A stretch of 64,000 nt of DNA from Halobellus sp. LT62. GTDB lineage: Archaea > Halobacteriota > Halobacteria > Halobacteriales > Haloferacaceae. Within the stretch, counting starts at the first letter, position 1, and every line of letters begins with the position of its first letter. The position numbers and the translations under genes were made by a program. Under the pieces are notes generated by a model. That model saw only the letters and a list, made by a program, of their open reading frames with translations, searched no databases and was not told where the DNA came from. The stretch is from contig NZ_JAYEZO010000001.1 of the NCBI RefSeq assembly GCF_037031285.1, positions 1,550,001-1,614,000 on the forward strand. Reading direction: 5' to 3'. Positions 1 through 25,763 of the stretch are shown here, piece by piece.

Positions 1-1487
1 TGGCCCACCGACTGACCGAGGACGAGTCCGTCGACGTCCTTCTGCTCGAGTCAGGCACGCCCGAGGAGGACCGCGATATGGTGAAAGATCCGACGCGCGT
101 CTGGGACCTGCTCGGCTCCGACCTCGACTGGAGCTTCGCGACCGAACCGCAACCGGATATGAACGGCCGGTCCATCGACTGGCCGCGTGGGAAGGCCCTT
201 GGTGGGTCGAGCGTGATCAACGGGATGGCGTACGTCCGCGGGCATCCCTACGACTACGACAACTGGGCCGATCAGGGGAACGACGGCTGGAGCTACGACG
301 AGATGCTCCCGTACTTCAAGAAGTCCGAGACACTGGCGGCCGATGGCGACGACGCCTACCACGGCACTGACGGCCCGCTAACCGTCTCGCGGGGCTCCGA
401 CCCTACCGAACTCGATCGGCTGTTCGTCGACGCGGCCGAGGCGGTCGGCCTCGACGTGAATATGGATTTCAACGGGGAACAGCAGGCGGGCGTCGGCTAC
501 TACCACTCGACGATCGACGACGGGCACCGACACAGTGCGGCGGCGGCATTCATCAAGCCGATTCTGGATCGGCCGAACCTCACCGTGGAGACGGCCGCAC
601 ACGTCACACAGCTCTCTTTCGAGAGCGACACCGCGACCGGTGTCGTCTACAAACAGGGGTGGTCACGGCACGAGGCGTCCGTCCGGGACGGCGGCGAGGT
701 CGTCGTCTCCGCCGGCGCGATCCAGACGCCACAGCTCCTGATGCTCTCGGGTATCGGTCCGGCCGACCATCTCGACGAACACGGTATTGACGCCAAAGTC
801 GACCTCCCCGGCGTCGGCCGCAACCTGCAGGATCACCTCCGCGTTCCCGTGGTCTTCGACACCACCGAGTCCGTTCCACAACCCGCGGGAGCCTCCGATA
901 AGGGGACTCGGTACGATCGCGTGAGCGTCGGCGCGTTCGCCCGCTCGGATCCGGACCGTCCGGCACCGGACATACAGTTCGGAATCTCTCCCGGGCTCTC
1001 GCCGGAACAGCCCGAACGCGGCTATTCGGTGATGGCTCTCCCGCTCCGTCCCACGAGTCGCGGCCGCGTGACGTTACAGTCCGACGATCCGTGGGATCAC
1101 CCGAAGATCGACCCCGCGTATCTCTCGACTGAGAAGGATGTCGACGACTTCGTCGACTGTATTCGGTGGGCGCGAAAGATCGGCCGCTCCGACGTCCTCT
1201 CGGAACTCCGCGACGTCGAGGTCGCGCCCGGCCCCGACGCCGAGAGGGACGAGGAGATCGCCGAATACGCCCGTAACAACGCGGTCAGCGGCTACCACCC
1301 CGTCTGTACGGCGAAGATGGGAAACGACAATCGCTCGGTCGTCGACGACGATCTGCGCGTCCACGGCCTCAACAACCTCCGCGTGATCGATGCGTCGGTG
1401 ATGCCGCAGATCACGAGCGGCAACACCAACGCGCCGACGATCGCCATCGCGGAGAAGGGTGCGGATCTGCTGAAAGCGTCGCAGTAG
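1..1487 (+). CDS. GMC-family FAD alcohol oxidoreductase (5' end outside window)
   Basis: Choline-dehydrogenase-like flavoenzyme that oxidises alcohols to aldehydes. The reading frame is open from base 3, and the first visible residues (AHRLTEDESVDVLLLESGTP) match residue 17 onward of the paralogue at 12385, so only about 16-18 residues including the FAD-binding GGGSAG are lost. The GMC signature PRGKALGGSS and the C-terminal SGNTNAPT are present. The catalytic-His segment reads YHPVCTAKMG, whereas both paralogues have YHPVGTCKMG, so the Gly and Cys after the catalytic His are altered while the His (codon 1296-1298) remains. It converges on the CoA ligase gene. The substrate cannot be inferred. 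Confidence 0.93.
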   Translation, partial: AHRLTEDESVDVLLLESGTPEEDRDMVKDPTRVWDLLGSDLDWSFATEPQPDMNGRSIDWPRGKALGGSSVINGMAYVRGHPYDYDNWADQGNDGWSYDEMLPYFKKSETLAADGDDAYHGTDGPLTVSRGSDPTELDRLFVDAAEAVGLDVNMDFNGEQQAGVGYYHSTIDDGHRHSAAAAFIKPILDRPNLTVETAAHVTQLSFESDTATGVVYKQGWSRHEASVRDGGEVVVSAGAIQTPQLLMLSGIGPADHLDEHGIDAKVDLPGVGRNLQDHLRVPVVFDTTESVPQPAGASDKGTRYDRVSVGAFARSDPDRPAPDIQFGISPGLSPEQPERGYSVMALPLRPTSRGRVTLQSDDPWDHPKIDPAYLSTEKDVDDFVDCIRWARKIGRSDVLSELRDVEVAPGPDAERDEEIAEYARNNAVSGYHPVCTAKMGNDNRSVVDDDLRVHGLNNLRVIDASVMPQITSGNTNAPTIAIAEKGADLLKASQ

Positions 1488-1541: not shown

Positions 1542-2876
1542 CTACTCGCCGTCGTGCTTGATGAGTTTCGTCTTGTACTCGCCGGCCGGTAGGTCGTCGA
1601 TATCGGTGACTGTCGGGTCGACGCGCGCCTTCAGCTGCTCGCGGACCTCGGTGACGACTTCGTCGGCGGCGTCCGCCGCCGATCGATCGGAAGCGGGCTC
1701 CAGCGCGATCTCGATCGGGATCGGCTCCTCGAAGTTCACCTTGTCCGCTTCGGGGAGGACGACGCGGAGCCGCGGCGCGACGCCGTCGACGTCGGAGATT
1801 ACGTCGCGGATCGCTGACGGGAAGACGTTCATTCCCTTGTAGATGAGCATGTCGTCTGCACGGCCGACGACTTGGATCTTCGGCGCGGTCCGGCCACAGT
1901 CGCAGTCGGTGCCCGTGACGGTGACGTAATCTCCGGAGCGGAACCGCAGCAGCGGCGTCGCCTCGCGGCGCAGGTGCGTGTACACGAGCTCTCCCTCCGC
2001 GCCTTCCTCGAACGGTTTCACCTCGCCGCTCTCGGGGTCGATCAGCTCGACGTGGACGAATCCCTGCGCGTGGAAGTGCATTCCCTCTTCTTCGGCGCAT
2101 TCAGCCCACATACTCCCGAGGACGTCGCCGAGGCCCATCGCCTCGCGGACGAGTGAGACGTCCCAGACGTCGTAGAACTCGTCTCTGATCTCCGGGTTGG
2201 CGATGCCCGGCGCGGCACCGCCGATTACCTTCTCGAACCCGAAGTCCTCGGGTTCGACGCCGACGATGTCTTCGGCGTTTTCCGAGAGATACCGGATGTG
2301 CGACGTTGTGGTCCAGAGGATGTCGGGTCGGACGTCCAGCGCGACCGAGAGGAGTCGTTCGGTGCTCTCGCCGCCCGCTGGAACCACGTTCGCGCCGAGT
2401 TTGGTCAGCGTCTCGAAATACGGCGTCCCGCCGGTGATCATCGTCTGCCCGGCCCCGAAGAGCACGGTGTCTTCCGGACGAACGCCGACGGTGTAGAACG
2501 ACCGTTTCTGGACCGTGTTCCAGTTCCGTCGGTCCTGCGCGGTCAGTCCGAAATACGTCGGTTTGCCGGTCGTCCCGGACGACGAGATGGTGCGGTTGAG
2601 CGCGGACTTGGGGGCCGCTTGGTGCTCCCCGAGGGGTCTCGCCGGGACGGGGTCTCGCTGGGAGTCGCGTTCGTCCTGCTTCGTCGTGAACGGAACTGCT
2701 TGCAGCGCTTCGAGAGAGTCGAGTTCGTCCGGATCGATTCCCCACTCGTCGAACCGACGCTGATAGAACTCCGAGCGCTCCCGAAGATACTCGATCTGTT
2801 TCGGGAGCAATCGCTCGTGTTCGGCGAGAACTTGGTCCCACGGCTGGGTCTCGATCGGATCGTACACATCCGCCAT
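1542..2876 (-). CDS. phenylacetate-CoA ligase family protein (PaaK-like)
   Basis: AMP-forming ligase of 444 residues expected to activate an aryl or acyl acid to its CoA thioester in the cytoplasm. The ATP-binding motif SSSGTTGKP lies at residues 98-106. The C-terminal part shows the PaaK pattern with FRSGDYV, CDCGRTAPKI and GRADDMLIYKGMNVFP. I chose the ATG at 2876 because MADVYDP begins the family homology and a TATA-like sequence (ACGTTAAAAT on the minus strand, about 2897-2907) lies about 27 bases upstream; an in-frame extension to 2996 reads as noncoding. The surrounding oxidoreductases suggest that it activates an acid made locally. Phenylacetate itself is not proven. Confidence 0.88.
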   Translation of the reverse strand: MADVYDPIETQPWDQVLAEHERLLPKQIEYLRERSEFYQRRFDEWGIDPDELDSLEALQAVPFTTKQDERDSQRDPVPARPLGEHQAAPKSALNRTISSSGTTGKPTYFGLTAQDRRNWNTVQKRSFYTVGVRPEDTVLFGAGQTMITGGTPYFETLTKLGANVVPAGGESTERLLSVALDVRPDILWTTTSHIRYLSENAEDIVGVEPEDFGFEKVIGGAAPGIANPEIRDEFYDVWDVSLVREAMGLGDVLGSMWAECAEEEGMHFHAQGFVHVELIDPESGEVKPFEEGAEGELVYTHLRREATPLLRFRSGDYVTVTGTDCDCGRTAPKIQVVGRADDMLIYKGMNVFPSAIRDVISDVDGVAPRLRVVLPEADKVNFEEPIPIEIALEPASDRSAADAADEVVTEVREQLKARVDPTVTDIDDLPAGEYKTKLIKHDGE

Positions 2877-3053
2877 ACTGCGACGGTTGCGTGACTCCCA
2901 TTTTAACGTAACGGTGAGACCACCGAACACGCCGGCGCAGTCGTGACTGTCTGTCTTCCGATGCGACGCACCTGTGTATTCGACTGTTGACCGCATCGAC
3001 GCAGGCTGGTGGCCGGAACGGGTCTGTGCTCGCCGCGATCTCGACTCGCTTGG

Positions 3054-3986
3054 TTACTCGGCCCGGCGGGCGACGTACCGTTTCGCCGATTCGATCGCCG
3101 TGACACCGTCGCCGACCGCCGCGGCGATTTCGAGCGGGCTTTCCTCTCTGACGTCGCCCGCGGCGAAGATGCCCCCGACGCTCGTTTCCATCGATTGGTC
3201 GACGGCGACCCGGCCGTCCTCGGCGAGTGAGACCGTCCCGTCGAGAAACGCCGAGTTCGGTCCGGAGCCGGTGTTCACGCTCACGCCGCCGACCTCGATC
3301 GTGTTTTCCACCGCACTGTCTGACTCGTTCTCCTCGCTCTCGACGCGGATGCCGGTCACGAGCCCGTCGCTGCCGAGCACCTCCGTCACCGCCGTCCCGG
3401 TCAGCACCTCGATATCGGGATGGGACCGCGCTTCGTCGGCGAGCGCCTCGTCGGCCGCCAGTTCGGACGCCTCGTCGATCAGGAGCACCTCGCTCGCGTA
3501 CTCGGTCAGAAACACCGCGTCGATGGCGGCGTGGTTGCCCCCGCCGACCACCGCGATCCGTTCGTCGCGGTAGAGCGGGCCGTCGCAGGTGGCGCAGTAG
3601 AAGATCCCCCGACCCTCGTACTCCTCCTCACCCGGCACGTCGAGGCGTCCGTCGCTGCTGCCCGTCGCGACGACGACGACGGCCGCCTCGTACTCGCCGC
3701 TGTCGGTCAGCACCGTGTGCGGATCGCCGGGTTCGATCCCCTCGACTCGCTCCAAGTTGACTTCGGGGTCGTACTTCTCCGCCTCTTCGACCATCTTCGA
3801 GCGGAGTTCCGTCCCGGAGACGCCGCCCGGAAAGCCGGGGTACGATCGAATCTCGTGTCGATTCACGAGTTCCCCACCGATCGACTCGTCTTCGAAAAAC
3901 AGCGTGTCGAGTCCGCTTCGGCCGGCGTACGCCCCGGCGGCCAACCCCGCGGGCCCCGTTCCGATGATAATCACGTCGTGCGCCAT
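3054..3986 (-). CDS. thioredoxin reductase-like NAD(P)/FAD disulfide oxidoreductase
   Basis: Flavoprotein of 310 residues, the usual length for low-molecular-weight thioredoxin reductases. The FAD-binding GTGPAG is at residues 9-14, the redox pair C131-A-T-C134 follows, and the second Rossmann motif VVGGGNHA starts near 147. It would move electrons from NAD(P)H to a thioredoxin or related disulfide partner. The start at 3986 (MAHDVIIIG) fits the family N-terminus; a further ATG at 4079 would add 31 unrelated residues. The gene is divergent from the alcohol dehydrogenase at 4117. Two Cys-motif proteins lie in the same island (CGSC at 6387-6956 and CDPC at 25764-26438), so a local partner is possible but not shown. 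Confidence 0.88.
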   Translation of the reverse strand: MAHDVIIIGTGPAGLAAGAYAGRSGLDTLFFEDESIGGELVNRHEIRSYPGFPGGVSGTELRSKMVEEAEKYDPEVNLERVEGIEPGDPHTVLTDSGEYEAAVVVVATGSSDGRLDVPGEEEYEGRGIFYCATCDGPLYRDERIAVVGGGNHAAIDAVFLTEYASEVLLIDEASELAADEALADEARSHPDIEVLTGTAVTEVLGSDGLVTGIRVESEENESDSAVENTIEVGGVSVNTGSGPNSAFLDGTVSLAEDGRVAVDQSMETSVGGIFAAGDVREESPLEIAAAVGDGVTAIESAKRYVARRAE

Positions 3987-4086
3987 AATTGCGTCCGGAG
4001 ATCCCACAGCGCGGGCAAAAAAGGTTTCCACCACGCTCGTCGGATCGTATATCTGACGACCGACTGAGCTCGGATCCACCTCAACG

Positions 4087-4096: not shown

Positions 4097-4116
4097 GTTT
4101 GTCCGAACTTGGGGCT

Positions 4117-5154
4117 GTGAAAGCAGCTAGACTATACGGTACAGAAGACGTTCGTATCGACGAGGTCGACGCGCCGGAGCCCGGCCCGGGCGAGGTGCTC
4201 GTCGACGTGGCCGCCTGCGGGATCTGCGGGTCGGACCTCCACTTCTATGAGGACGCCGACAACTACTTCGAGGAGGGTGCGCTCCCGCTCACGCTGGGCC
4301 ACGAGATCGGCGGAACCGTCGCCGAGACCGGCGAGGGCGTCGACATCGAGGTCGGCACCGACGTCGTCCTCGGGCCGCACACGCCCTGTGGGGAGTGTTG
4401 GTGCTGCGAGCGGGGGAAGTACAACCTCTGTCGCGACCTCAACGCGACCTCGGCGCGACCGGGCGGGTACGCCGAGCAGGTCGTCGAGAGCGCGGACAAC
4501 GCGATCCCGCTGCCCGACGGCGTCTCGCCCGCGGACGCCGCGATCGCCCAACCGGTCAGCGTGGGCCTACACGCCGTCAGGCAGTCCCCGGTCGGGATCG
4601 GCGACAGCGTCGCGATCGTCGGCGCGGGTCCGATCGGCCTCGGCGCACTTCGCTCGGCGAAATCGTCGGGGGCGGCACCGATCTACGTCTCGGAACCCCA
4701 AGCCGCGCGCCGTGAGATCGCCGAAGATTTCGGTGCGGACGTGCTGATTGACCCCACTGAGGAGGACCCCGCCGAACGCATCCACGAGGAGACGGGCACC
4801 GGCGTCGACGTCGCCTTCGAGGCCGTCGGTCACGGGGCGACGCTGTCGCAGGCCGTCGAGTCCACGAAGGCCGACGGTCACACCACGGTCATCGGCGTCT
4901 TCGGGGGCGAAGTCGAGTTCGATCCGCAACTGCTCGTCAGCGCCCAACGGACCGTCAGCGGATCGACGTCCCACCTCGTCGGACCGCGCCTCACCGAAGA
5001 GTACGGCGTGGTGATCCGCCAGCTCGCCGCCGGCGAACTCGACGCCGAGAAGTACGTCACCTCCCGAATCGGTATCGACGACGTCGTCGAAGACGGATTC
5101 GAGGCGCTGCAGGACCCGGACAGAGAAGAGCGGAAGATCCTCGTCTGTCCCTAG
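4117..5154 (+). CDS. zinc-dependent medium-chain alcohol dehydrogenase (copy 1)
   Basis: MDR-family dehydrogenase of 345 residues, related to polyol and butanediol dehydrogenases. Catalytic zinc ligands fit C37 (CGICGSD) and H62-E63 (GHE). Structural zinc ligands are C91, C94, C97 and C105. A Rossmann motif VGAGPIGLG follows in the middle of the chain. The GTG at 4117 is preferred because it gives the same MKAAR start as the paralogue at 12265 and fits the TATA box. All zinc ligands fall at identical residue numbers in the two copies. It probably oxidises a secondary alcohol or polyol with NAD(P)+; the true substrate is unknown. Confidence 0.92.
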   Translation: MKAARLYGTEDVRIDEVDAPEPGPGEVLVDVAACGICGSDLHFYEDADNYFEEGALPLTLGHEIGGTVAETGEGVDIEVGTDVVLGPHTPCGECWCCERGKYNLCRDLNATSARPGGYAEQVVESADNAIPLPDGVSPADAAIAQPVSVGLHAVRQSPVGIGDSVAIVGAGPIGLGALRSAKSSGAAPIYVSEPQAARREIAEDFGADVLIDPTEEDPAERIHEETGTGVDVAFEAVGHGATLSQAVESTKADGHTTVIGVFGGEVEFDPQLLVSAQRTVSGSTSHLVGPRLTEEYGVVIRQLAAGELDAEKYVTSRIGIDDVVEDGFEALQDPDREERKILVCP

Positions 5155-5279: not shown

Positions 5280-6362
5280 TTACTCGTAGAAGCCCTCGGT
5301 GGGCACCCAGTTCTCCTCGATCGAGTACTCCTCTAACAGCGACTCCCAGTTGTCGGGGAACTCGATCTTCTTCGTCACCGGACCGCCGATCGAACTACCG
5401 AAGATGGCGTTGATGCGGCCGGGACCCCCGATCGTCGCCACCTTGACGGCGTCGACGTCGGCGTACTGCTGTACCTGTCGCGGCGGGACCTTTTCACCGC
5501 CGCCGAACGTCCGGGTGAACTCGTTTGTCTTGTAATAGGAGTTCTCGACGATGTACTCCTTGATTTCCTGCTTGCTCAGGCCTTCCTTTTCGAGTTCTTC
5601 GGCGTTGTACGGGTTGATCGCGTGCGTGATCGTCACGTTGAGATCCTCGCCGGAACTAGCCCGCATCGACGAGGGGGTGTTCTCGATCATCCCACGAAGG
5701 ACGTGCTCGCCGGTGTTCTCGCTGGGGAGCCACTGCACCCAACTGTTCGGTCCGGCCAGCGAGATCGTGCTGTCGTCGGCGTCGTAGCCGTGGGTGACGT
5801 GGTAGGGTTCCCACGGGCTCGCTTCCTCGTTCTCGCCGGCGAGCATCGAGAACTTCGCGGGGTTGCCCATCACGCCCATGTCCTTCTCGCCGGGGTAGAT
5901 CTTCGCCGTGTTCCGGTAGGCCATCCCGAGCGCTCGCGCGATCGTCTGGTTCGCGTGGAAGCTCGGTCCGAACGCGCCCGACCCGCTCTCGATGTCGAGC
6001 ATCTCCCGAACGGGCCCGTTCACGATCCACTGGTACGCCCACGATCCGGTGCTGACGGAGAACTGAATCGAGTTGGAGTTCGGATCCGCGAGCGCGCGAA
6101 CGCCCGCTTCGAGCACGGGCATATAGATCGGTAGACAGCCCGCCATCACCGCGTTGGCGGCGAGGCGCTCGATCGTAAGCGGGTTCTCGTTGTTCCCGAG
6201 GCGGCCGACGACGTGCTCTCGCGGCTTTTCGGTCCCGCGGAGCATCTCCTCGACTCGCTCTTCGGTCGGCGGGATGACCGGCAGGCCGTCGGTCATCCCC
6301 TCGCGATACAGCGACTTGTTGATCTCTGCTAACGACTGCTCGTCTTGGGATTGTTCGGGCAT
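5280..6362 (-). CDS. conserved UGSC-associated protein, copy 1
   Basis: Protein of 360 residues with no signal peptide or membrane segment. It belongs to a conserved family of unknown function that I recognise from the neighbourhood of, or fusion with, UGSC (seleno)proteins. Recognisable blocks are DGLPVIPPTEERV near the N-terminus, NAVMAGC with an invariant-looking Cys, WIVNGPVR, GAFGPSFHANQTI, NEEASPWEPYH and IGGPGRINAIF near the C-terminus. It lies 24 bp behind the CGSC gene and is almost certainly cotranscribed with it. A second copy sits at 10043-11140. The many conserved Gly, Asn and His blocks suggest an enzyme, but I do not know the reaction. Confidence 0.8.
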   Translation of the reverse strand: MPEQSQDEQSLAEINKSLYREGMTDGLPVIPPTEERVEEMLRGTEKPREHVVGRLGNNENPLTIERLAANAVMAGCLPIYMPVLEAGVRALADPNSNSIQFSVSTGSWAYQWIVNGPVREMLDIESGSGAFGPSFHANQTIARALGMAYRNTAKIYPGEKDMGVMGNPAKFSMLAGENEEASPWEPYHVTHGYDADDSTISLAGPNSWVQWLPSENTGEHVLRGMIENTPSSMRASSGEDLNVTITHAINPYNAEELEKEGLSKQEIKEYIVENSYYKTNEFTRTFGGGEKVPPRQVQQYADVDAVKVATIGGPGRINAIFGSSIGGPVTKKIEFPDNWESLLEEYSIEENWVPTEGFYE

Positions 6363-6386
6363 AGCGTAAGTCCGTGGACCGGTGTG

Positions 6387-6956
6387 TTACTGCGCCACCG
6401 GTTCTGCGCGTTCTTTGTCGTTCAGCGATCGAGTCAGCTCTTCTTCGATGCCGTCCATCACGTCCTCTGAGACCTCTTCGCGGATCCGTTCGAGATCCGT
6501 CGTCTCACAGCGGACGGGGGTCTTCTTGTATCGCAGCGGGCGACCGCGCTCGATCGCGTTCGACTGGTAGTCGAGCTCGAACCCCTCGTCGATCAGGCCG
6601 ACGCCGGGCGTTCCGGCGTCCTCGACCAGTTCGACGCCCCACGCGAGGAACTTCGTGCAGGAGCCACAGTCGCCGATCGCACCGATCGCCGTGTCGACGC
6701 CCTCGGCCCACTCGACGACGGCGTCCTGCTCGTCGTCGTTTTTGATCTGGTTCAGGTGCTCGACGTGATACCAGCTGAACGTCGCGTCGGGGTATCGGTC
6801 TTGTAGTTTCTCCTGTACGGCCGTGAGAAGCGGCTCCGCCGCCGGCTTTCCGTTGTCATACAGCCCGATCGTCTTTCCAGCTAGCGTGTCGACCCGGGGA
6901 ACCAGCGGCTTCTGTTCGACATCGTCGGTGTCCGATCCAGGGGTAACAAGTCCCAT
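6387..6956 (-). CDS. UGSC-family protein, cysteine form (CGSC motif)
   Basis: Protein of 189 residues. The signature is GDCGSCTKF with C97-G-S-C100, the cysteine version of the U-G-S-C motif that names this family; position 97 is encoded by TGT, not TGA, so no selenocysteine is involved here. The residues after it (WGVELVEDAGTPGVG) also fit the family. The motif resembles a redox-active dithiol, but the family's reaction is unknown to me. The ATG at 6956 is chosen because a TATA-like GTTATAT lies about 30 bases upstream; an ATG at 6983 would add nine residues. The partner gene follows 24 bp downstream and an aldehyde dehydrogenase is divergent. Confidence 0.78.
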   Translation of the reverse strand: MGLVTPGSDTDDVEQKPLVPRVDTLAGKTIGLYDNGKPAAEPLLTAVQEKLQDRYPDATFSWYHVEHLNQIKNDDEQDAVVEWAEGVDTAIGAIGDCGSCTKFLAWGVELVEDAGTPGVGLIDEGFELDYQSNAIERGRPLRYKKTPVRCETTDLERIREEVSEDVMDGIEEELTRSLNDKERAEPVAQ

Positions 6957-7196: not shown

Positions 7197-8633
7197 ATGT
7201 CACTCACAATGCAACAACAGTACGAGCTGTTTATCGACGGAGAGAGCGTCGCGCCGGCGAACGAGGAGTATCGAACGACCGAAGACCCCGCCACCGAAGA
7301 ACCGATCGCGCGGTACGCGGCCGCGACGGCGGCCGACGTCGACCGCGCGGTCGAAGCGGCCCAACGCGCCCAACTCGAGTGGAAGAAGAAGCGCCCCAGC
7401 GAGCGCGGCGCGGTCCTCCGCGACGTCGCTGACGCGGTGCGGGAGAACGCCGACGAGCTCGCGGAGATCGAGACCAAAGATCAGGGAAAGCCGATTTCGT
7501 ACTCGGAGCGGTTGATTCAGGGAGCCGCGGGGACGTTCGACTTCTATGCGGGTGCGGCGGACAAGATCCAGGGCGACAGCATCCCGATCGGCGAGGACGG
7601 CGTCGACTTCACGATGGAGGAGCCCTACGGCGTGAGCGCGCAGATCATCCCGTGGAACACGCCGCTGAATCTGGCGGCGCAGGGAATCGCCCCCGCGCTC
7701 GCTGCGGGCAACGCAGTCGTGATCAAGCCCGCACCGACGACGCCGCTTCCACCGCTGCACCTCGCGGAAGTCTGCAAGGAGGCGGGCGTTCCGGACGGGC
7801 TCATCAACGTCGTCACCGGTGCGACCGAGCCCGGTGCCGCGCTCTCGGGCCACGAGGGCGTCGACACCGTCTCGTTCACCGGGAGCGTCCCCACGGGCCA
7901 AGCCGTGATGGAGTCCGCGGCGAAGAACATCACTCCCGTCACGCTCGAACTCGGCGGCAAGAACCCCGCGGTCGTCATGCCCGACGCCGACCTCGAGGAG
8001 GCCGTCAGCGCGATTCAGATCGGTATTTTCAGCAACACCGGACAGATCTGTGCGGCCGCGGACAGAGCGGTCGTTCACGAGGACGTCTACGACGAGTTCG
8101 TCGAGATGATCGTCGAGCGCGCGGAGGAGTACAGTCTCGGAGCCGGAATGGACGACCCGGAGATGGGCCCGCTCAATCACGAGGCGCACTTCGAGGAAGT
8201 ACTGGAGTACATTCAGACCGGTATCGACGAGGGCGCGACGCTCGAAACCGGCGGCGACGCGCCGGACCGAGACGGCTACTTCGTCGAACCGACGGTCTTC
8301 TCCGACGTCGAGAACGATATGACGATCGCCCAAGAGGAGATATTCGGGCCGGTTCTCTGTGTGATCCCGTTCTCGGACCAAGCGGAGGCCGTCGAGATCG
8401 CGAACGACATCGAACTCGGTCTCACGAGCGGCGTCTTCACACAGGATATCGATACGGCGCTGCAACTCTCGCGTGACATCGAGGCCGGAACCGTGTACGT
8501 GAACCAGTGGTTCGGCGGCTCGACCGCGACGCCGTTCGGCGGCTACAAGAAGAGCGGAATCGGGCGCGAGATGGGTATGTACGCGTTCGAGTCACACCTC
8601 CAGACGAAGAACGTCTGTATCGACCTCTCCTGA
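7197..8633 (+). CDS. NAD(P)+-dependent aldehyde dehydrogenase
   Basis: Full-length ALDH-superfamily enzyme of 478 residues that oxidises an aldehyde to the acid. Catalytic residues are visible: N154 in IPWNTP, K177 in VIKPAP, general base E251 in ELGGKNP, and nucleophile C285 in TGQICAA. The cofactor region FTGSVPTG and the C-terminal FGGYKKSGIGREMG are typical of the betaine-aldehyde/lactaldehyde-type subfamily. The ATG at 7197 is used; an ATG four codons later is equally possible. It stands divergent from the CGSC operon and could oxidise aldehydes made by the GMC and zinc-dependent alcohol dehydrogenases nearby. The substrate is unassigned. Confidence 0.93.
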   Translation: MSLTMQQQYELFIDGESVAPANEEYRTTEDPATEEPIARYAAATAADVDRAVEAAQRAQLEWKKKRPSERGAVLRDVADAVRENADELAEIETKDQGKPISYSERLIQGAAGTFDFYAGAADKIQGDSIPIGEDGVDFTMEEPYGVSAQIIPWNTPLNLAAQGIAPALAAGNAVVIKPAPTTPLPPLHLAEVCKEAGVPDGLINVVTGATEPGAALSGHEGVDTVSFTGSVPTGQAVMESAAKNITPVTLELGGKNPAVVMPDADLEEAVSAIQIGIFSNTGQICAAADRAVVHEDVYDEFVEMIVERAEEYSLGAGMDDPEMGPLNHEAHFEEVLEYIQTGIDEGATLETGGDAPDRDGYFVEPTVFSDVENDMTIAQEEIFGPVLCVIPFSDQAEAVEIANDIELGLTSGVFTQDIDTALQLSRDIEAGTVYVNQWFGGSTATPFGGYKKSGIGREMGMYAFESHLQTKNVCIDLS

Positions 8634-9226: not shown

Positions 9227-9973
9227 TTAGCTGTCGTCGTTGCCGGTTTCGTAGTCCAAATCCAGATCCTCCGCCGAGGGGTTGAGGTGGCCGCCTCCTT
9301 CGACTTCGAGGATCGTTCCGTCGACGAACTCCGAGAGATCAGACACGAGGTACAAGACGCCGTTGGCGACGTCTTCGGGCTCGACGAAGCGGCCCATCGG
9401 GCCGCGCGGACTGCCGCCGGGACAGAGCGCGTTCACCCGGATGTCGGGACCGAGGTCGCGCGCGGCGTGTTTGGTCAGGCCGATGAGTCCCCATTTCGAG
9501 GCCGTGTAACTCGGGTTGCCGTTGACCGTCACGTTGCGGCCGGCCATCGACGAGATGTTCACGATCCGGCCGTTTCCGTGCTCCAACATCCCGGGCATCA
9601 CGGCCTTCGAGCAGTTGAAGGGGCCCGTGAGGTTGAGGTCCAATCCGAACTGCCACGCGTCCGCTTCGATCTCTTGGAACGTCTCACCGCCGGCACCCCC
9701 CGCGTTGTTGACGAGGATCTCGACGGTGCCGAATCGCTCTTGCGCCGCCTCGACGAGCGCTTCTGCCGAGTCGCGATCAGTCACGTCGCACTCGACGAAA
9801 ATCGTCTCTGCGCCGTCGTCTGCGATGTCGGCTGCGACACCTTGTCCCTTCTCGACTTGGACGTCCGCGAGGACGACGTTCGCCCCGGCCTCGCCGAGCT
9901 GTGTGGCGATTTCTGCGCCGAACCCCTGCGCTGCTCCCGTCACGATCGCTGTCTCTCCGGAGAGGTCGATCAT
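9227..9973 (-). CDS. short-chain dehydrogenase/reductase (SDR)
   Basis: Classical SDR of 248 residues, probably an NAD(P)-dependent alcohol or ketone oxidoreductase. Cofactor motif TGAAQGFG is at 12-19, NNAG at 89-92, and the catalytic set is S141, Y156 and K160 (YTASK). Asp37 in LADVQ after the second strand favours NAD(H). A TATA-like stretch (GATTTATTA on the minus strand, near 9996-10005) lies about 27 bases before the ATG, so it may be transcribed alone as well as with the partner and ADH genes upstream. The acidic tail after residue 230 is a halophilic feature. Confidence 0.92.
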   Translation of the reverse strand: MIDLSGETAIVTGAAQGFGAEIATQLGEAGANVVLADVQVEKGQGVAADIADDGAETIFVECDVTDRDSAEALVEAAQERFGTVEILVNNAGGAGGETFQEIEADAWQFGLDLNLTGPFNCSKAVMPGMLEHGNGRIVNISSMAGRNVTVNGNPSYTASKWGLIGLTKHAARDLGPDIRVNALCPGGSPRGPMGRFVEPEDVANGVLYLVSDLSEFVDGTILEVEGGGHLNPSAEDLDLDYETGNDDS

Positions 9974-10042: not shown

Positions 10043-11140
10043 TCAGTACGTCGATCCGTCGAACCACTGCCGATCCAACGCGTACTCCTCGATGAGGTCG
10101 TCCCACCCCTCGGGGAACTCGATCGGTTTCGTGACCGGACCGCCGATCGACGGGCCGACGATGGCGTTGACGCGACCGGGGCCACCGATCGTCGCGATCT
10201 TCACGTACTCCGGGCCGTCGATCTGCGGTATCTGTCGCGGTCGGACGTTCCCCTCGCGTCGGCGTAGCGGGCCGTCCCAGATAACCCCTTTCTGGTAGTC
10301 CTCGGCCCGCAGATAGGAGTTCTCGCAGAGGTACTGTTTGATGTCTCCTTTGCTCATCTCGGCGGCGGCCAACTCCTCGGCGTTGTACTGATTGACGAGG
10401 TGGAAGATGGTCTGGTCGATATCCCCACCCTGCTGTCGCCCGCCCACCATCGACGGCGGCGTGTTTCGGACCATCCCTTCGAGGATCTCCTCCGCGTCGT
10501 TCTCGTGGGGGAACCACTGGACGAAGCTGTTCGGGCCCGCGAGCGTGATCGTGCTCTCGTCGGTGTCGTAGCCGTGCGTTGCGTGGTAGGGCTTCCACGG
10601 ACTCGCCTCCTCGTTCTCGCCCGCGAGCAGGCTGAATTTGAACGGGCTCCCCATCACACCCATGTCCTTCTCTCCCGGTCGGAGCGAGGCCGTGTTCTTG
10701 TACGCCAGACCGAGCGCGCGACCGATCGTCCGGTTGGCGTGGAAGTTCGGCCCGAACGCGCCCGACCCGCTCTCGATGTCGAGTTTGTTCCGAACGGGTC
10801 CGTTCACGATCCACTGATACGCCCACGACCCGGTGCTGACCGACACCTGAATGGAGTTAGATCTCGGATCGGCAAGCGCGCGAACGCCCGCTTCGAGGAC
10901 CGGCATATACGGGGGAGCACATCCCGCCATCACCGCGTTGGAGGCGAGCATCTCGACGGTGATCGGGGTGTCGTTGTTGCCCAGCCGACCGAGCACGTGA
11001 TCGCGCTCGTGGGCCGTCCCGCGGAGCATCTCTGTGACCTTCTCGTCGGTCGGCGGCACTACCGGGAGACCGTCGGTCATCCCCTGTTCGTAGAGCGATC
11101 GCGACACCGAACTCGGTGAATCGTCCTGCTGGTTAGCCAT
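10043..11140 (-). CDS. conserved UGSC-associated protein, copy 2
   Basis: Protein of 365 residues and a clear paralogue of the product of 5280-6362. The same blocks appear in the same order: DGLPVVPPTDEKV, NAVMAGC, WIVNGPVR, GAFGPNFHANRTI, NEEASPWKPYH and IGGPGRVNAI. It differs in having an insertion around DGPLRRREGNVRP in the last third and a different C-terminus. No CGSC gene is adjacent; it lies between the ADH at 12265 and the SDR, all on the minus strand and probably cotranscribed. The start at 11140 (MANQQDD) is preferred over 11203 because homology begins shortly after it. The function is unknown. Confidence 0.8.
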   Translation of the reverse strand: MANQQDDSPSSVSRSLYEQGMTDGLPVVPPTDEKVTEMLRGTAHERDHVLGRLGNNDTPITVEMLASNAVMAGCAPPYMPVLEAGVRALADPRSNSIQVSVSTGSWAYQWIVNGPVRNKLDIESGSGAFGPNFHANRTIGRALGLAYKNTASLRPGEKDMGVMGSPFKFSLLAGENEEASPWKPYHATHGYDTDESTITLAGPNSFVQWFPHENDAEEILEGMVRNTPPSMVGGRQQGGDIDQTIFHLVNQYNAEELAAAEMSKGDIKQYLCENSYLRAEDYQKGVIWDGPLRRREGNVRPRQIPQIDGPEYVKIATIGGPGRVNAIVGPSIGGPVTKPIEFPEGWDDLIEEYALDRQWFDGSTY

Positions 11141-11224: not shown

Positions 11225-12265
11225 TCACGGTTCGACGAGGACCTTCACCTCGCCGCTCTCGCTGTCGGCCAGCGCCTCGAACCCCTCGTCGACGATGTCG
11301 TCCAGCGGGACTCGAGACGTTACGAGCGGATCGGCGTCCAACTCTCCGTCCGCGAGCATTCCGAACACCGCGCCGAACTCCCGAGCGGCCAGCGGTCCCG
11401 TCTCGTAGGCGGCCGAACCGTTGATCGTCCGCTCGTGGTTGACGAGGTCCATCGGATCGATCTCGACGGGGCCTTTGAACACGCCGAGCACCGTCGTATG
11501 TCCGCTCGCTCTGGTGGCCGTGATCGCGTCGTTGAGCGCCGACTCGTTGCCGGCGACCTCGAACGACACGTCGGCTCCGTCATCGGTCACCTCGGCGACG
11601 CGCTCGGCGAGATCCGTCTCCCGCGGATCGACGACGACGTCGGCCCCGCACTGGTGGGCGAGTTGCCGTCGCGACTTGCGGTGGCCGGAGGCGATGACGG
11701 GCCCCACGCCCGCGGCCTTCGCGAGTTGCACCATCCCGAGACCGATCGGGCCCATTCCGACGACGACGGCCGAGTGACCCGGTCGAAGCGGGGATTCGAG
11801 CAGGCCGTGGTACGCGACCGTCAGCGGTTCCGCGACCGCAGCGTCGGCCGGGGAGAGGCCGTCCGGAAGCGGGATCACGTTTCCGGCCGGCGCAACGATC
11901 TGCTCGGCGTAGCCGCCCCGTCGGTGCGCGCCGATCACTTCGAGGTTCCGGCAGAGGTTGTACTTCCCCGCGTCGCAACACCAGCAGTCCTCGCAGGCCA
12001 CGAGCGGGTTTACACCGACGTCGGTTCCGACCGCGAGGTCGACGCCCTCGCCGACCGCCGCGACCGTCCCGCCGAGCTCGTGGCCCATCGTGTACGGGAG
12101 GAACGAGTCGTCGTCGCGACGCGGGCCGTAGCGGTACTCGCTGAGGTCCGACCCGCAGATTCCACAGGCCTCGACGTCGATCAGTACCTCGCCCGATCCG
12201 GGCTCCGGCGCGTCGACCTCGTCGATACGTACGTCTCTGTTCCCGTAGTAGCGCGCTGCTTTCAT
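11225..12265 (-). CDS. zinc-dependent medium-chain alcohol dehydrogenase (copy 2)
   Basis: MDR dehydrogenase of 346 residues, paralogous to the gene at 4117. Catalytic zinc ligands fit C37, H62 and E63, and structural zinc ligands C91, C94, C97 and C105. The Rossmann motif VGMGPIGLG has Met in place of the Ala seen in copy 1. It heads a probable operon with the UGSC-associated copy 2 gene (85 bp downstream) and perhaps the SDR. A strong TATA box (CTTTTATAAT on the minus strand, about 12287-12297) lies near -27, predicting a leaderless start at 12265. The substrate is likely a secondary alcohol or diol, not proven. Confidence 0.92.
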   Translation of the reverse strand: MKAARYYGNRDVRIDEVDAPEPGSGEVLIDVEACGICGSDLSEYRYGPRRDDDSFLPYTMGHELGGTVAAVGEGVDLAVGTDVGVNPLVACEDCWCCDAGKYNLCRNLEVIGAHRRGGYAEQIVAPAGNVIPLPDGLSPADAAVAEPLTVAYHGLLESPLRPGHSAVVVGMGPIGLGMVQLAKAAGVGPVIASGHRKSRRQLAHQCGADVVVDPRETDLAERVAEVTDDGADVSFEVAGNESALNDAITATRASGHTTVLGVFKGPVEIDPMDLVNHERTINGSAAYETGPLAAREFGAVFGMLADGELDADPLVTSRVPLDDIVDEGFEALADSESGEVKVLVEP

Positions 12266-12384
12266 TCTGACTGGACTTTCTCGTAATGCATTATAAAAGA
12301 TGGTCCGATACCGCCGCTTCCCGCCCGCGAGTAAGTGACCGGGACCGAATGATATTTGACACCCTGTTTAAAACATTAACGTTG
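12266..12384. promoter_or_regulatory. divergent promoter region between ADH copy 2 and GMC oxidoreductase
   Basis: This 119-bp gap separates two divergent genes. On the minus strand CTTTTATAAT is well placed for the ADH. On the plus strand ATGATATTT (about 12349-12357) and TTTAAA (12367-12372) are candidate TATA elements for the GMC gene. Sharing the gap makes joint control of the two oxidoreductases plausible. I see no clear operator palindrome. Confidence 0.5.
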
Positions 12385-13938
12385 ATGTACGACTACGTGA
12401 TCGTCGGTGGCGGGAGCGCAGGCTGTGTGCTCTCCCATCGACTGACGGAGGCGGAAGAGGTCGAAGTTCTATTGCTGGAGGCGGGGACGCCCGCCAGCGA
12501 ACGCGGCGCGGTGAAAGACCCCTCGCGCGTCTGGGAACTGATGGAGTCTGACCTCGATTGGGCGTTCAAGACCGAGCCGCAACCGACGATGAACGGGCGT
12601 CGAATCGACTGGCCGCGCGGGAAGGCCCTCGGCGGGTCGAGTATGATCAACGGGATGGCGTACATACGGGGTCACCCCTACGATTACGACACGTGGGCCG
12701 AACTCGGCAACGAGGGCTGGAGTTACGACGATCTGCTCCCGTACTTCAAGAAATCGGAGAACTTCCAGGCCGACGGGGATATGCAGTACCACGGGACCGA
12801 CGGTCCGCTCTCGGTCTCCCGCGGCGACAACCCGGAGGATCTCACGCCGAGTGAGTTCCAAGAGAAGCTGGTCGAGGCGGCCCGAGAGGCCGGGATGGAA
12901 AAGAACTTGGACTTCAACGGGGAGCGGCAGGCAGGCATCGGCTGGTATCACTCCACGATACGGGACGGTGAGCGCCACAGCGCCGCGAAGGCGTTCATCG
13001 AACCGGTCCTCGGCAGACCGAACCTGTCCGTCGAGACGGCGGCTCACGTCACGCGGCTCACGTTCGACGGCGACCGCGTGACCGGCGTCGTCTACGAACA
13101 GCACGGGCAGGAGCACGAGGTCGAGGTCGCGGGGGGCGGCGAGGTCGTGCTCTCGGCCGGTGCGATCCAGTCGCCGCAACTGCTGATGCTATCCGGACTC
13201 GGCCCGGCGGATCATCTCGCCGAGCACGACATCGACGCCAAGGTCGATCTCCCCGGCGTCGGCCGCAACCTGCAGGATCACCTCCGAGTGAGCGTCGCCT
13301 ACGAGACCGACGAGCCGGTCACGCCCCGCGATCCGGACGATTTCCCGGACAAAGGAGCCCGCTACGACCGCGTACTGACCGGGGCATTCGAGCGCTCCTC
13401 ACCCGACCTCCCCGCGCCGGACATCCAGTACGGGCTGTCGGCCGGACTGGATCCGGAGCACCCAACTGAGGGCTACTCGGTCGCCGCGCTCCCGCTCCGA
13501 CCGACGAGTCGCGGGCGCATCACGCTCGCCTCCACGGACCCATACGACGACCCGATCATCGATCCGAAGCTCCTGTCGACCGAGAAGGATGTCGACGACA
13601 TCGTCACCTCCATTCGCCGGGCCCGCGAGATCTCGAGGGCGGACGCGCTCGACGACGTGCGGGGCGAGGAGGCCCGTCCCGGGCCGGACGTGGAAACGCA
13701 CGAGGAGATCGCCGATTACTGCCGCGACACCGCAGAGTCGGGATACCATCCGGTGGGGACCTGCAAGATGGGCGACGACGAGCTGGCCGTCGTCGACGAC
13801 GACCTCCGCGTCCACGGCGTCGAGGGGCTCCGCGTCATCGACGCGTCGATTATGCCCAACCTGATCAGCGGGAACACGAACGCGCCGACGATCGCCATCG
13901 CGGAGAAGGGTGCTGATCTCCTCAAGCAGAGCCGATAG
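12385..13938 (+). CDS. GMC-family FAD alcohol oxidoreductase (choline dehydrogenase-like)
   Basis: Complete GMC enzyme of 517 residues. The FAD-binding GGGSAG is at 8-13 and the GMC signature PRGKALGGSSMING at about 77-90. The catalytic pair is His455 (YHPVGTCKMG) and Asn499 (SGNTNAPT), with the 44-residue spacing found in choline oxidase. The start at 12385 (MYDYVIVGGG) is used because the 33 residues before it in frame have no family character. It is closely related to the truncated gene at 1-1487. It would oxidise a primary alcohol to an aldehyde with electrons passed to an acceptor; whether choline is the substrate cannot be decided. Confidence 0.93.
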   Translation: MYDYVIVGGGSAGCVLSHRLTEAEEVEVLLLEAGTPASERGAVKDPSRVWELMESDLDWAFKTEPQPTMNGRRIDWPRGKALGGSSMINGMAYIRGHPYDYDTWAELGNEGWSYDDLLPYFKKSENFQADGDMQYHGTDGPLSVSRGDNPEDLTPSEFQEKLVEAAREAGMEKNLDFNGERQAGIGWYHSTIRDGERHSAAKAFIEPVLGRPNLSVETAAHVTRLTFDGDRVTGVVYEQHGQEHEVEVAGGGEVVLSAGAIQSPQLLMLSGLGPADHLAEHDIDAKVDLPGVGRNLQDHLRVSVAYETDEPVTPRDPDDFPDKGARYDRVLTGAFERSSPDLPAPDIQYGLSAGLDPEHPTEGYSVAALPLRPTSRGRITLASTDPYDDPIIDPKLLSTEKDVDDIVTSIRRAREISRADALDDVRGEEARPGPDVETHEEIADYCRDTAESGYHPVGTCKMGDDELAVVDDDLRVHGVEGLRVIDASIMPNLISGNTNAPTIAIAEKGADLLKQSR

Positions 13939-14052: not shown

Positions 14053-15579
14053 ATGTCGAACGCGTACGACTACGTCGTCGTCGGTGCCGGATCTGCTGGC
14101 TGCGTGATCGCGAACCGACTGTCTGCCGACGAGGGGACCGACGTACTGCTACTCGAAGCCGGAAAACCGGACGAGAAAGACGAGATCCACGTCCCGACGC
14201 TGTTCCCCGCACTGATGCAATCGGAAGTCGATTGGGACTACTGGACGGTCCCGCAGGACGGGCTCAACGGCCGACGGGAGTATCACCCGCGCGGGAAAAC
14301 CCTCGGCGGCTCCTCGGCGATCAACGCGATGATGTACGTCCGCGGCAACCCCCACGACTACGACGCGTGGGCCGAACTCGGCAACGACGGGTGGAGCTAC
14401 GACGACTTGCTCCCGTATTTCAAGCGGATGGAGGACTTCGAGGGCGGCGAGTCCGAGCACCACGGCGAGGGCGGTCCGCTCCGCGTCGAGCAGGAGCACC
14501 CCTACGGCGACGTCACGAACGCGCTGCTCGACGCTGCCGTCGAGGTCGGCTTCGAACGCAACGAGGACGTCAACGCGGGCAGACAGGAGGGGATGGGACA
14601 CCTCCATCTCACGGTCGAAGACGGCACACGACAGAGCACCGCCGTTTCGTACCTCCACCCCATCCTCGACCGGGAGAACCTCACAGCCGAGACGGGCGCA
14701 CACGTCACGCGGATCGAGTTCGACGGAGACACCGCTTCAGGGGTCACGTACGTCAAAGACGGGTCCGCGCACACCGTCGACGCGACCGAAGAGGTCGTTC
14801 TCTCGGCGGGCTCGATCGACACCGTCCAGCTACTGCTGCTCTCGGGCGTCGGCCCGGCCGACGAACTCGACGCACACGGCATCGAGGTCACACACGACCT
14901 GCCCGGCGTCGGGAAAAACCTCCAAGACCACCTCGTCGTGTCCTCGGCGTACGAACTGAACGGCGATCCCGAGATCGAGGACGGGGAGGTACTCTGTCAG
15001 GTCACCGGCTTCGAGCGGACCGACCCCGACCTCCCGGCACCCGACATCCAGTACTTCCTTGCCCGGGTGTACTTTATGCGGCACGGGTTCGACAACCCCG
15101 AGCAGGGCGCGGGGATGACGCCCAGCGCGACGCTGTTGCATCCGGAGAGTCGCGGCGAGATCACGCTCGCGTCCGACGATCCACTCGAGGATCCGCTCAT
15201 CGATCCGAACTATCTGGACGCGGAAGCGGATATGGATACGCTCGTCGAGGGGCTCAAGCGGACCCGGGAGATCGCTCACGCGAGCGCGCTCGACGAATAC
15301 CGCGGCGCGGAGATCTGGCCCGAAGGCGACGTCGAGGGCGACGAAGACCTCCGCGAACACGTTCGAGAGACCGCTCAGACGATCTATCACCCCGTCGGAA
15401 CGTGTAAGATGGGCGACGACGAGATGGCCGTCGTCGACGACGACCTCCGCGTCCACGGACTGAACGACCTCCGCGTCGTCGACGCGTCGGTGATGCCGCG
15501 TATCACCTCCGGAAACACGAACGCGCCGACGATCGCCATCGCGGAGAAAGGTGCTGATTTGATCGAAGAAGCGCGCTAG
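14053..15579 (+). CDS. GMC-family FAD alcohol oxidoreductase, second subgroup
   Basis: GMC enzyme of 508 residues, more distant from the other two copies. GAGSAG (about 11-16), PRGKTLGGSSAIN, His446 (YHPVGTCKMG) and Asn490 (SGNTNAPT) are all in place. It has a shorter middle part and FLARVYFMRHGF where the others have a different loop, suggesting another alcohol. It follows the previous GMC gene after 114 bp with its own TATA-like GTTAATTATG about 27 bases before the ATG, so independent regulation is likely. It converges on the sulfatase gene. Confidence 0.93.
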   Translation: MSNAYDYVVVGAGSAGCVIANRLSADEGTDVLLLEAGKPDEKDEIHVPTLFPALMQSEVDWDYWTVPQDGLNGRREYHPRGKTLGGSSAINAMMYVRGNPHDYDAWAELGNDGWSYDDLLPYFKRMEDFEGGESEHHGEGGPLRVEQEHPYGDVTNALLDAAVEVGFERNEDVNAGRQEGMGHLHLTVEDGTRQSTAVSYLHPILDRENLTAETGAHVTRIEFDGDTASGVTYVKDGSAHTVDATEEVVLSAGSIDTVQLLLLSGVGPADELDAHGIEVTHDLPGVGKNLQDHLVVSSAYELNGDPEIEDGEVLCQVTGFERTDPDLPAPDIQYFLARVYFMRHGFDNPEQGAGMTPSATLLHPESRGEITLASDDPLEDPLIDPNYLDAEADMDTLVEGLKRTREIAHASALDEYRGAEIWPEGDVEGDEDLREHVRETAQTIYHPVGTCKMGDDEMAVVDDDLRVHGLNDLRVVDASVMPRITSGNTNAPTIAIAEKGADLIEEAR

Positions 15580-17237: not shown

Positions 17238-19316
17238 TCAGTCGAGCCGCTCGCGGAGCCGTTCGAGCGCCGCCGGGTTCTCCATCGAGGAGAGGTCGCC
17301 GGGATCCTCGCCGGCGGCGACCGACTTGACCGCTCTGCGGATGATCTTCCCCGACTGGGTTCGGGGGAGGTCGTCGACGAAATGAAGCCCGCGCGGGCGG
17401 AACGGCTTGCCCTGCTCCCGGCCGACGAGTCCCCGGAGCTCCTCGGCGAGCGCGTTGGACGGCTCGTACTCCGGATCCGGAATGACGAACGCGACGACGG
17501 CCGTCCCGGTCGTCTCGTCGGGGACGCCGACCACCGCGGCCTGCGTGACCGCGTCGTGCTCGGCGAGGACGCCTTCGACCTCCGCCGGGCCGACCTTGCG
17601 TCCGGCGACGTTGAGCGCGTCGTCCGCGCGTCCGTGGAGGAACCAGAAGCCCTCCTCGTCCTTCTGCGCCCAGTCGCCGTGGTCCCAGAGGTCCTCCCAC
17701 GTCGACCAGTACTCCGCCAGATAGCGCTCGTCGCCGCTCCAAAGCCCCTTCGTCATCGACGGACAGGAGTCACGAGCCACGAGGTACCCGCGCTCGTTGT
17801 CGTCGGCGACGCTGTCGCCGTCGGCGTCGACGATGTTGATATCCATTCCCAACCCCGGGCCACCGAGCGAGCAGGGTTTGAGGGGCTGCGTCGGCATCGG
17901 CATCAGGAAACAGCCCAGGATCTCGGTCCCGCCGGAGATGTTGATGATCGGGCACCCACCGTTACCGACTGTCTCGTAGAACCACTCCCACGACTCGCGA
18001 TCCCACGGTTCGCCGGTCGATCCCAAGAGGCGCAGACTCGAAAGGTCGTGCCTCCCGACCCAATGGTCGCCGTGTTCGCGGAGCGCTCGGATCGCGGTCG
18101 GGGAGATTCCGAACTGGGTGAGGTCGTGCCGATCGATCATCTCCCAGAACCGGTCCGGTTCGGGGTGATCCGGCGCACCCTCGTACATAAACACCGTCCC
18201 GCCGAGCGCGTGATTGCCGATGAGCGTCCACGGCCCCATCATCCAGCCGATGTCGCTCACCCAGAAGAAGCGGTCGCCCGGCTTCTGATCGAAGCCGAAG
18301 TGGATCTCCTTGGCAGGTTGCACGAGTCCCCCCGCGTGCGTGTGAACGATTCCTTTTGGTTTCCCCGTCGTCCCCGAGGAGTACAGCAGCATCGACTCCT
18401 GATCGGACGGTAGCGACTTCGACTCGTAGCTGTCTTCGGCGGTCGCGACGGCGTCGTTCCACCAGACGTCGCGACTGTCGGTCCACGGGATCGGCGACGC
18501 CGCCGCTTGGTCCTCGCTCCCGTGGCCCTCCGGCGAGTCTCTCTCGCTCCCGTGGCTCTCCCGTGTGTCCCCTTCTCGCGACCCGAGTCGGTCGTAGACG
18601 ACGACGTGTTCGACGTGACCGACCTCGTCGATCGCGCTGTCGGCAGTGCCCTTGAGTCTGATCTCGCTACCGCGTCGATAGAACCCGTCGCCGGTGAACA
18701 GGACGGAACACTCGCTGTCTTCGATCCGCGTCGCCGTCGCGTCGACGCCGAATCCCGAGAAGATCGGGACGGCGATCGCGCCGACTTTGAAACAGCCGTA
18801 GAGGATCGCGGCCACCTCGGGTACCATCGGCATATACAGGCCGACGGTGTCGCCGACGCTGACGCCGACCGAGTCGAGGTAGTTCGCGACCCGGTTCGCC
18901 TGCTCGTGGAGGTCGCCGAACGTCACCTCGCGGATTTCCCCCGGCTCGCCCTCCCAGAGTATCGCGATCTCGTCCCGTCGGTCACTCCCTGCGGCCGCGT
19001 GCCGGTCGAGGACGTTGTGGGCGATGTTGAGTCGACCGCCGGGGTACCAGTCGGTGAACTGCGGGCCGTCGGTGTCGTCGCACACCGCGTCGTACGGCTC
19101 GTCGAATTCGAGGCCGAGGTAGTCGACGAGTTCGTCCCAGAACCACTCGATTCCGGCGTTTCTCACGCTCTCTTCGCCACCCGTGGTGCGCTCGATCAGC
19201 TCCTCGTAGTCGTCGATGTCGTACGACTTCATGAACTTCCAAACGTTCGTCGACTCGACCCACTCTCGACTCGGTTCGTGGACGACGGGATACTGAACGG
19301 CGGATCGCTCTGTCAT
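17238..19316 (-). CDS. AMP-forming acyl-CoA synthetase (acetyl-CoA synthetase-like)
   Basis: ANL-superfamily ligase of 692 residues that would make an acyl-CoA from acid, ATP and CoA. The P-loop YSSGTTGKPKG lies near residue 318, NISGGTEILG follows, and the C-terminal GRADDALNVAGRKVGPAE and catalytic-Lys RTQSGKIIRR are present. An N-terminal ACAS-type extension is visible (WFWDELVDYLGLEF). A hydrophilic insertion around residues 243-270 carries the repeated units SHGSE and GHGSE, matching a short direct repeat in the DNA. It follows the peptide ABC operon and precedes the sulfatase on the same strand. The chain length of the acid is not evident. Confidence 0.9.
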   Translation of the reverse strand: MTERSAVQYPVVHEPSREWVESTNVWKFMKSYDIDDYEELIERTTGGEESVRNAGIEWFWDELVDYLGLEFDEPYDAVCDDTDGPQFTDWYPGGRLNIAHNVLDRHAAAGSDRRDEIAILWEGEPGEIREVTFGDLHEQANRVANYLDSVGVSVGDTVGLYMPMVPEVAAILYGCFKVGAIAVPIFSGFGVDATATRIEDSECSVLFTGDGFYRRGSEIRLKGTADSAIDEVGHVEHVVVYDRLGSREGDTRESHGSERDSPEGHGSEDQAAASPIPWTDSRDVWWNDAVATAEDSYESKSLPSDQESMLLYSSGTTGKPKGIVHTHAGGLVQPAKEIHFGFDQKPGDRFFWVSDIGWMMGPWTLIGNHALGGTVFMYEGAPDHPEPDRFWEMIDRHDLTQFGISPTAIRALREHGDHWVGRHDLSSLRLLGSTGEPWDRESWEWFYETVGNGGCPIINISGGTEILGCFLMPMPTQPLKPCSLGGPGLGMDINIVDADGDSVADDNERGYLVARDSCPSMTKGLWSGDERYLAEYWSTWEDLWDHGDWAQKDEEGFWFLHGRADDALNVAGRKVGPAEVEGVLAEHDAVTQAAVVGVPDETTGTAVVAFVIPDPEYEPSNALAEELRGLVGREQGKPFRPRGLHFVDDLPRTQSGKIIRRAVKSVAAGEDPGDLSSMENPAALERLRERLD

Positions 19317-24732: not shown

Positions 24733-24733
24733 A

Positions 24734-25678: not shown

Positions 25679-25763
25679 AAGTCAACGATCCTATTCGACC
25701 ATCATAATCCTTTCCCATATTCGAATGCGGTCCTCGCGACTAATCCCGGCTTCGCAGACCGGG

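Follow-up and report, generated by a model that had tools for sequence, protein, structure and literature searches.

Proteins of the UGSC family, known so far as orphan selenoproteins, form an obligate pair with the members of a second protein family that carries no name. One such pair, in a cysteine form, is encoded in the window, by which we mean the whole stretch of 64,000 nucleotides analysed here from the 3.23 Mb genome of Halobellus sp. LT62 (G000:C1:1550001-1614000). As a system the pair is new, and combines one known family (UGSC) with one unnamed family (the partner). Profile comparisons indicate that UGSC is very probably homologous to the selenocysteine (Sec) domain at the C-terminus of GrdB, and the catalytic residues of the two align. 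The whole model, to which we give roughly even chances, is that UGSC and its partner would act as a two-subunit thiol (elsewhere selenol) reductase resembling the substrate-specific half of glycine/proline reductase.

UGSC was described as one of the most abundant selenoproteins of ocean metagenomes, with 255 Sec sequences in 37 samples (PMC2398784). A thioredoxin-like fold was presumed in 2008 (PMC2398784) and repeated in a 2026 review, and the available text of these sources assigns no function to the family. The Global Ocean Sampling study also includes a 'UGSC/Unknown_1' fusion, in which UGSC is joined to a conserved domain of unknown function (PMC2398784). Unknown_1 is probably the partner described here, and the available text of that study gives no co-occurrence, neighbourhood or GrdB link for UGSC/Unknown_1 (PMC2398784). 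The new elements are the homology of UGSC to GrdB, the obligate partner, the predicted Rossmann-like fold, and a thioredoxin reductase at each of the two UGSC loci of this genome that comes from a clade separate from the housekeeping one.

The UGSC protein

The UGSC gene lies on the minus strand at positions 6387-6956 of the window and encodes 189 amino acids, or 198 if translation starts at an upstream ATG at 6983. The protein matches PF24696 far above chance (E 2.9e-24; 86.5 bits against a cut-off of 25), and the match covers profile positions 3-171 of 172; with the NCBIfam equivalog model NF041046 it scores 65 bits, under the cut-off of 125. The motif C97-G-S-C100 (TGT GGC TCC TGC, 6657-6668, minus strand) is found within D96-C97-G98-S99-C100, and C97, G98, S99 and C100 are invariant in alignment A2. 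The initial annotation, made from the letters of the DNA, had proposed a UGSC-family protein in which cysteine, encoded by TGT, takes the place of Sec, and both the sequence and the profile match confirm it. The full-length match and the motif are common to this protein and the UGSC family (PF24696/NF041046), but the form found here is a cysteine form, in an archaeon without a tRNA-Sec above cut-off (see below).

UGSC and the partner were folded as separate subunits. In the AlphaFold2 model of UGSC (pLDDT 88.6), the protein forms a five-stranded alternating beta/alpha sheet, and the motif ends strand 3. The predicted fold would be Rossmann/flavodoxin-like, and the model would speak against the thioredoxin-like assignment repeated in reviews. 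Thioredoxin is absent among the structural matches listed, a listing that by itself excludes nothing.

The partner family

The partner gene (partner A, 5280-6362, minus strand) encodes 360 amino acids and starts 24 bp past the UGSC stop on the same strand, with the spacer at 6363-6386. Its product contains the NAVMAGC block, the cysteine of which is C76. The length, the 24-bp spacing and the NAVMAGC block agree with the initial annotation, which named no strand for either gene. The partner has no relative in Pfam or NCBIfam, and a profile search of the PDB returned no match below E 0.9. Across 114 relatives, the conserved pattern includes DG-P-PPT, and residues D25, G26, P28, P32, T33, G75, C76, G116, R143, E177 and G192 are nearly invariant. 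The nearly invariant GC prompted consideration of pyruvoyl formation at G75-C76, which was not adopted, cleavage being without support. The quality of the partner model is middling (pLDDT 77.4), and the best match in a fold search, to a class I fumarase (Z 3.7), is too weak for use.

Several members of the system go beyond what was initially annotated. The window contains a paralogue of the first partner, partner B (10043-11140, minus strand), with 365 amino acids from an ATG at 11140 or 386 from an upstream GTG, and with 64% identity to partner A. It is located about 3 kb beyond UGSC; in other haloarchaea the second partner directly adjoins UGSC (L005, L006, L008, L028 and L029), and in several haloarchaea UGSC is flanked by two partner genes, one on each side. 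The source genome has two UGSC and four partner genes in total, including a second UGSC-partner pair (C1:1181549 and C1:1180449). The fourth partner gene (G000:C1:582132-583175; L055:7088-8176) is without a nearby UGSC, and its neighbours, judged by eye, are glycosyltransferase-like and mechanosensitive-channel-like genes. In a Nitrospina-type phylum three or four partner genes can lie in tandem, and in L090, L091, L094 and L095 the four-partner arrays adjoin a molybdenum aldehyde oxidase subunit.

Co-occurrence and fusion of the two families

UGSC and the partner occur in identical sets of genomes in each of the groups searched: in 15 of the 292 genomes of the haloarchaeal class, in 14 of 299 in a Bacillota-type phylum (that of L010) and in 18 of 18 in the Nitrospina-type phylum (that of L013), counts that are not independent events, since each group is made up of related genomes. 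The same pattern nevertheless recurs in all three groups, which are unrelated to one another, and the number of exceptional genomes is zero. A control search of a laboratory strain of Haloferax volcanii yielded no UGSC gene. All 16 haloarchaeal UGSC genes adjoin a partner gene, and each Nitrospina-type genome contains between 2 and 8 UGSC genes and between 2 and 15 partner genes.

In 52 of 55 loci the two genes are either fused or neighbours on the same strand (15/15 haloarchaeal, 20/20 Bacillota-type and 17/20 Nitrospina-type), and the order of the haloarchaeal operon, with UGSC followed by the partner, is also the order of the domains in the fusions. Some of these fusions carry TGA at the C97 position. 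Fusion counts obtained by translating TGA as cysteine were discarded, because that translation also joins neighbours parted by a TGA stop. Among plasmid records, those from Paracoccus, Acidovorax, Variovorax and Roseovarius carry the pair, and those from Sporomusa and Vibrio carry fusions. The initial annotation had supposed a dithiol protein with a dedicated partner, a view now borne out by co-occurrence in three groups, by the fusion proteins and by the homology to the GrdB catalytic domain. The two checks that could have refuted that annotation, on the profile match and on co-occurrence in other genomes, left it standing.

Relationship to GrdB

The GrdB genes used for comparison came from bacterial genomes covered by these searches and were read through TGA. 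With the larger alignments, hhalign matched UGSC to the C-terminal Sec domain of GrdB at P 97.2 and E 3.4e-11, with 29% identity over 89 columns and with CGSC aligned on UGTC; small alignments gave P 95.5 and E 1.6e-8, and all of these E-values are for single comparisons. The 18 controls (sixteen unrelated neighbour families, GrdE and the partner) reached a P of at most 7%.

The resemblance to GrdB (PF07355; glycine/sarcosine/betaine reductase selenoprotein B) is limited to the C-terminal domain, the only one that the 189-residue UGSC protein has in common with it. PF07355, which represents the N-terminal domain of GrdB, had no match in UGSC or in the partner; this silence says little about C-terminal homology, because the matches of GrdB itself to PF07355 stop at the Sec codon. 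No relation of the partner to the GrdE of glycine reductase is detectable, and neither the GrdE nor the GrdB profile showed a relation to it (P 0.2 for GrdE, a small profile). Because the N-terminal domain of GrdB and GrdE are both missing, the UGSC-partner pair, which would work like a glycine/proline reductase, is not a member of that family. A glycine reductase locus (L030) also has a thioredoxin reductase gene, as is seen near UGSC. In a Nitrospina-type genome (L033; G316:C47) there is a short relative of GrdB, a PrdB-like selenoprotein with its in-frame TGA in the motif U-P-L-C.

GrdB-type proteins carry out reductive C-N cleavage (PMC10298544), and a GrdB-type C-F cleavage has been proposed from transcription (PMC10838667). 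FarBE, the fluoroacetate reductase proposed in Synergistota, likewise consists of a GrdB-type Sec protein and a substrate subunit, with attack on a C-X bond proposed (PMC10838667). However, the FarE subunit is GrdE-like (PMC10838667), which the UGSC partner is not.

Thioredoxin reductases at UGSC loci

A thioredoxin-reductase-like flavoprotein with the active site CATCDG is encoded at 3054-4079 on the minus strand (Pfam Pyr_redox_2; TIGR01292 289 bits, cut-off 343), a gene that likewise adds to the initial annotation. Thioredoxin reductase genes are found near UGSC in seven haloarchaeal loci (the window, L054, L056, L057, L059, L062 and L066), of which L054 is the second UGSC locus of the source genome. 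Outside the haloarchaea they accompany UGSC in Variovorax (L025), Roseovarius (L026) and a Nitrospina-type locus (L107). Each UGSC locus of the source genome has one such reductase, and these two are 66% identical to each other and 39% identical to the housekeeping copy. In a tree, six of the seven haloarchaeal UGSC-side reductases form one clade with support of 100/100, and the L059 reductase groups with the housekeeping type. Haloarchaeal UGSC loci often carry a thioredoxin reductase type of their own, apart from the housekeeping clade. It is gene association that suggests an electron supply from thioredoxin and thioredoxin reductase.

The presence of a CxxC motif together with a dedicated thioredoxin reductase could also be read in another way, which we consider unlikely. 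UGSC would then be a dithiol/disulfide oxidoreductase serving as a dedicated electron donor from thioredoxin reductase to the partner, and the partner, with C76, would be the catalyst. C76 is kept in 112 of the 114 partner relatives, including those fused to UGSC domains in which the motif is replaced by MGTS, and a thioredoxin-like redox role for UGSC was assumed in the 2008 study (PMC2398784). However, the homology of UGSC is to a catalytic domain that is thought to attack carbon, not to thioredoxins, and its model shows the five-stranded alternating beta/alpha fold. The MGTS fusions, moreover, retain the partner although their UGSC domain carries no thiol.

Selenocysteine, cysteine and thiol-free forms

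An in-frame TGA, read as Sec, occupies the C97 position in L010, L011, L012, L013, L022 and L023, and the table of Nitrospina-type sequences has exactly one TGA per full-length row. Among 17 sequences, an eight-pair hairpin starts 11 bases past the TGA, with 80% of cells pairing, and 17 cells change on both sides compared with 6.4 in shuffles (0/500). The hairpin appears to be as expected for a bacterial SECIS; taken one by one, the SECIS-like folds score weakly (z -0.5 to -2.5), and the covariation test is the better evidence. A tRNA-Sec scoring about 70 bits or more was detected in 14 genomes with the Sec form, and one metagenome-assembled genome (G540) has a single TGA copy without tRNA-Sec. 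In all 15 UGSC-bearing haloarchaea, including the source genome (G000), tRNA-Sec scores are below the family cut-off of 47. With its TGT codon and with no tRNA-Sec above the cut-off, the UGSC protein of the window is, as judged from sequence, not a selenoprotein.

C/UxxC is preserved in nearly all of the remaining members seen, the MGTS forms aside. In five fusions, from Sporomusa, Vibrio and some Bacillota-type genomes (L024:7323-9044, L027:7374-9056 and L081-L083), MGTS replaces U/CGSC, so that the Sec/Cys and the resolving cysteine are both lost, and the partner portion keeps C76. Other Bacillota-type fusions (L076-L078, L079 and L080) display the motif variants C-G-L-C and [U/C]-T-A-C. Because the MGTS branch is without Sec/Cys, the pair need not always perform thiol chemistry, and the MGTS state is the main observation that the reductase model leaves unexplained. 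The suggestion of C-X bond processing in the initial annotation is supported: it is now the best-supported mechanism, although an inferred one.

The thiol-free fusions, two of which (the Sporomusa and Vibrio copies) are found near aconitase X and DUF126 genes, would suit a further reading that we regard as quite improbable. The partner would be a lyase or isomerase with no net redox, and the UGSC domain would bind substrate or structure the complex, with the Sec/Cys serving as a base or as a covalent catalyst. The partner does weakly resemble class I fumarase and MmgE/PrpD-type proteins, but these structural matches (Z 3.7 and lower) are too weak for use. A dedicated thioredoxin reductase would also be difficult to accommodate, as would the near-universal C/UxxC outside the MGTS branch, and Sec normally marks redox or nucleophilic chemistry.

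Genomic surroundings

The alcohol- and aldehyde-oxidation surroundings that were initially annotated are real, as Pfam and NCBIfam matches show. They include a GMC oxidoreductase (78-1487, plus strand; PF00732, PF05199), a PaaK-type AMP-forming acyl-CoA ligase (1542-2996, minus strand; NF041878 270 bits, below the cut-off of 700), zinc alcohol dehydrogenases at 4099-5154 (plus strand) and 11225-12265 (minus strand; PF08240 and PF00107 in each), an aldehyde dehydrogenase (7197-8633, plus strand; PF00171 E 9.5e-173) and a short-chain dehydrogenase (9227-9973, minus strand; PF00106). Two additional GMC oxidoreductases are encoded on the plus strand. The first (12286-13938; PF00732, PF05199) is nearest to choline dehydrogenase but under the cut-off (NF002550 567 bits, cut-off 605), and the second (14053-15579) scores 575 bits with the same model, against the same cut-off of 605. 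Choline/betaine catabolism was considered as the meaning of the island and rejected: the GMC oxidoreductases and the aldehyde dehydrogenase best resemble BetA and BetB, but the curated cut-offs are missed.

The catabolic island extends to about 32 kb and includes an AcsA-like ligase, an Opp-type ABC transporter and a beta-keto acid cleavage enzyme (17238-27387), as well as a thiolase. Two other products are without a Pfam match, a 252-residue protein (25764-26522) and a 421-residue ORF (35215-36480), and an Rfam search of the first 17 kb of the window (1-17 kb) detected no RNA family. Peptide-type transporter genes are also found near UGSC in L011, L012, L057, L066 and L110. In other lineages the neighbours include CoA transferases, TRAP/TTT transporters, aconitase X and molybdenum aldehyde oxidase; neighbour counts are lower bounds, because the simple method used to call ORFs loses or distorts genes where the DNA is GC-rich. 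The neighbourhood varies between lineages, and therefore no single substrate is implied. The setting of the UGSC-partner pair is catabolic, with lineage-specific substrates.

Some loci have peroxiredoxin-, OsmC- and universal-stress-type genes nearby, which could instead point to detoxification or assembly, with the pair removing electrophiles or peroxides, or handling a metal/FeS cofactor, and taking no part in a catabolic step. The top structural match of UGSC, to chain H of the MCR activation complex 8s7v (Z 10.9), could be cited in the same direction, as the McrC and Mmp7 subunits of that complex hold FeS clusters (PMC12176620). However, this Z is only about 1 above those of generic Rossmann-like folds, and most neighbours are substrate-specific catabolic genes and transporters. 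The many paralogues per genome (2-8 UGSC and up to 15 partners in Nitrospina-type genomes) also suit substrate diversification, and a role in detoxification or assembly is, in our estimation, very improbable.

Proposed reaction and implications

For the proposed two-subunit reductase, we infer a cycle in which C97 attacks carbon, C100 resolves the adduct and thioredoxin reductase recycles the protein, because of the chemistry known or proposed for glycine/proline reductase (PMC10298544) and for fluoroacetate reductase (PMC10838667). The partner would bind and position the substrate, a small organic molecule that is probably a carbonyl or carboxyl product of the alcohol and aldehyde dehydrogenases encoded nearby. 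The thiolate of C97, or the Sec of the bacterial forms, would attack a carbon bearing a leaving group (C-O, C-N or C-S), and the leaving group would be expelled, so that a thioether (selenoether) adduct stays. C100 would next attack the sulfur or selenium, which would free the reduced product and join C97 to C100 in a bridge, and the dedicated thioredoxin reductase would re-reduce this bridge, either directly or via thioredoxin. Substrate specificity would be determined by the partner paralogues, which number two in the window and reach 15 in one genome elsewhere.

A broader view, which we hold tentatively and place a little short of an even chance, is that such pairs constitute a separate and widespread class of bacterial and archaeal (seleno)thiol reductases. 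Members of this class would combine a GrdB catalytic domain with a substrate subunit whose fold is new, in many substrate-specific paralogues, and would carry out reductive C-O, C-N or C-S cleavage paid for by thioredoxin reductase, with Cys in place of Sec in the haloarchaea.

The function of UGSC becomes directly testable because of its obligate partner, its putative dedicated electron donor and its homology to a selenoenzyme of known chemistry. Expression of the cysteine-form pair does not require selenium machinery, and the expansion of these families in some bacteria suggests a reservoir of C-X bond reductases still to be characterised.
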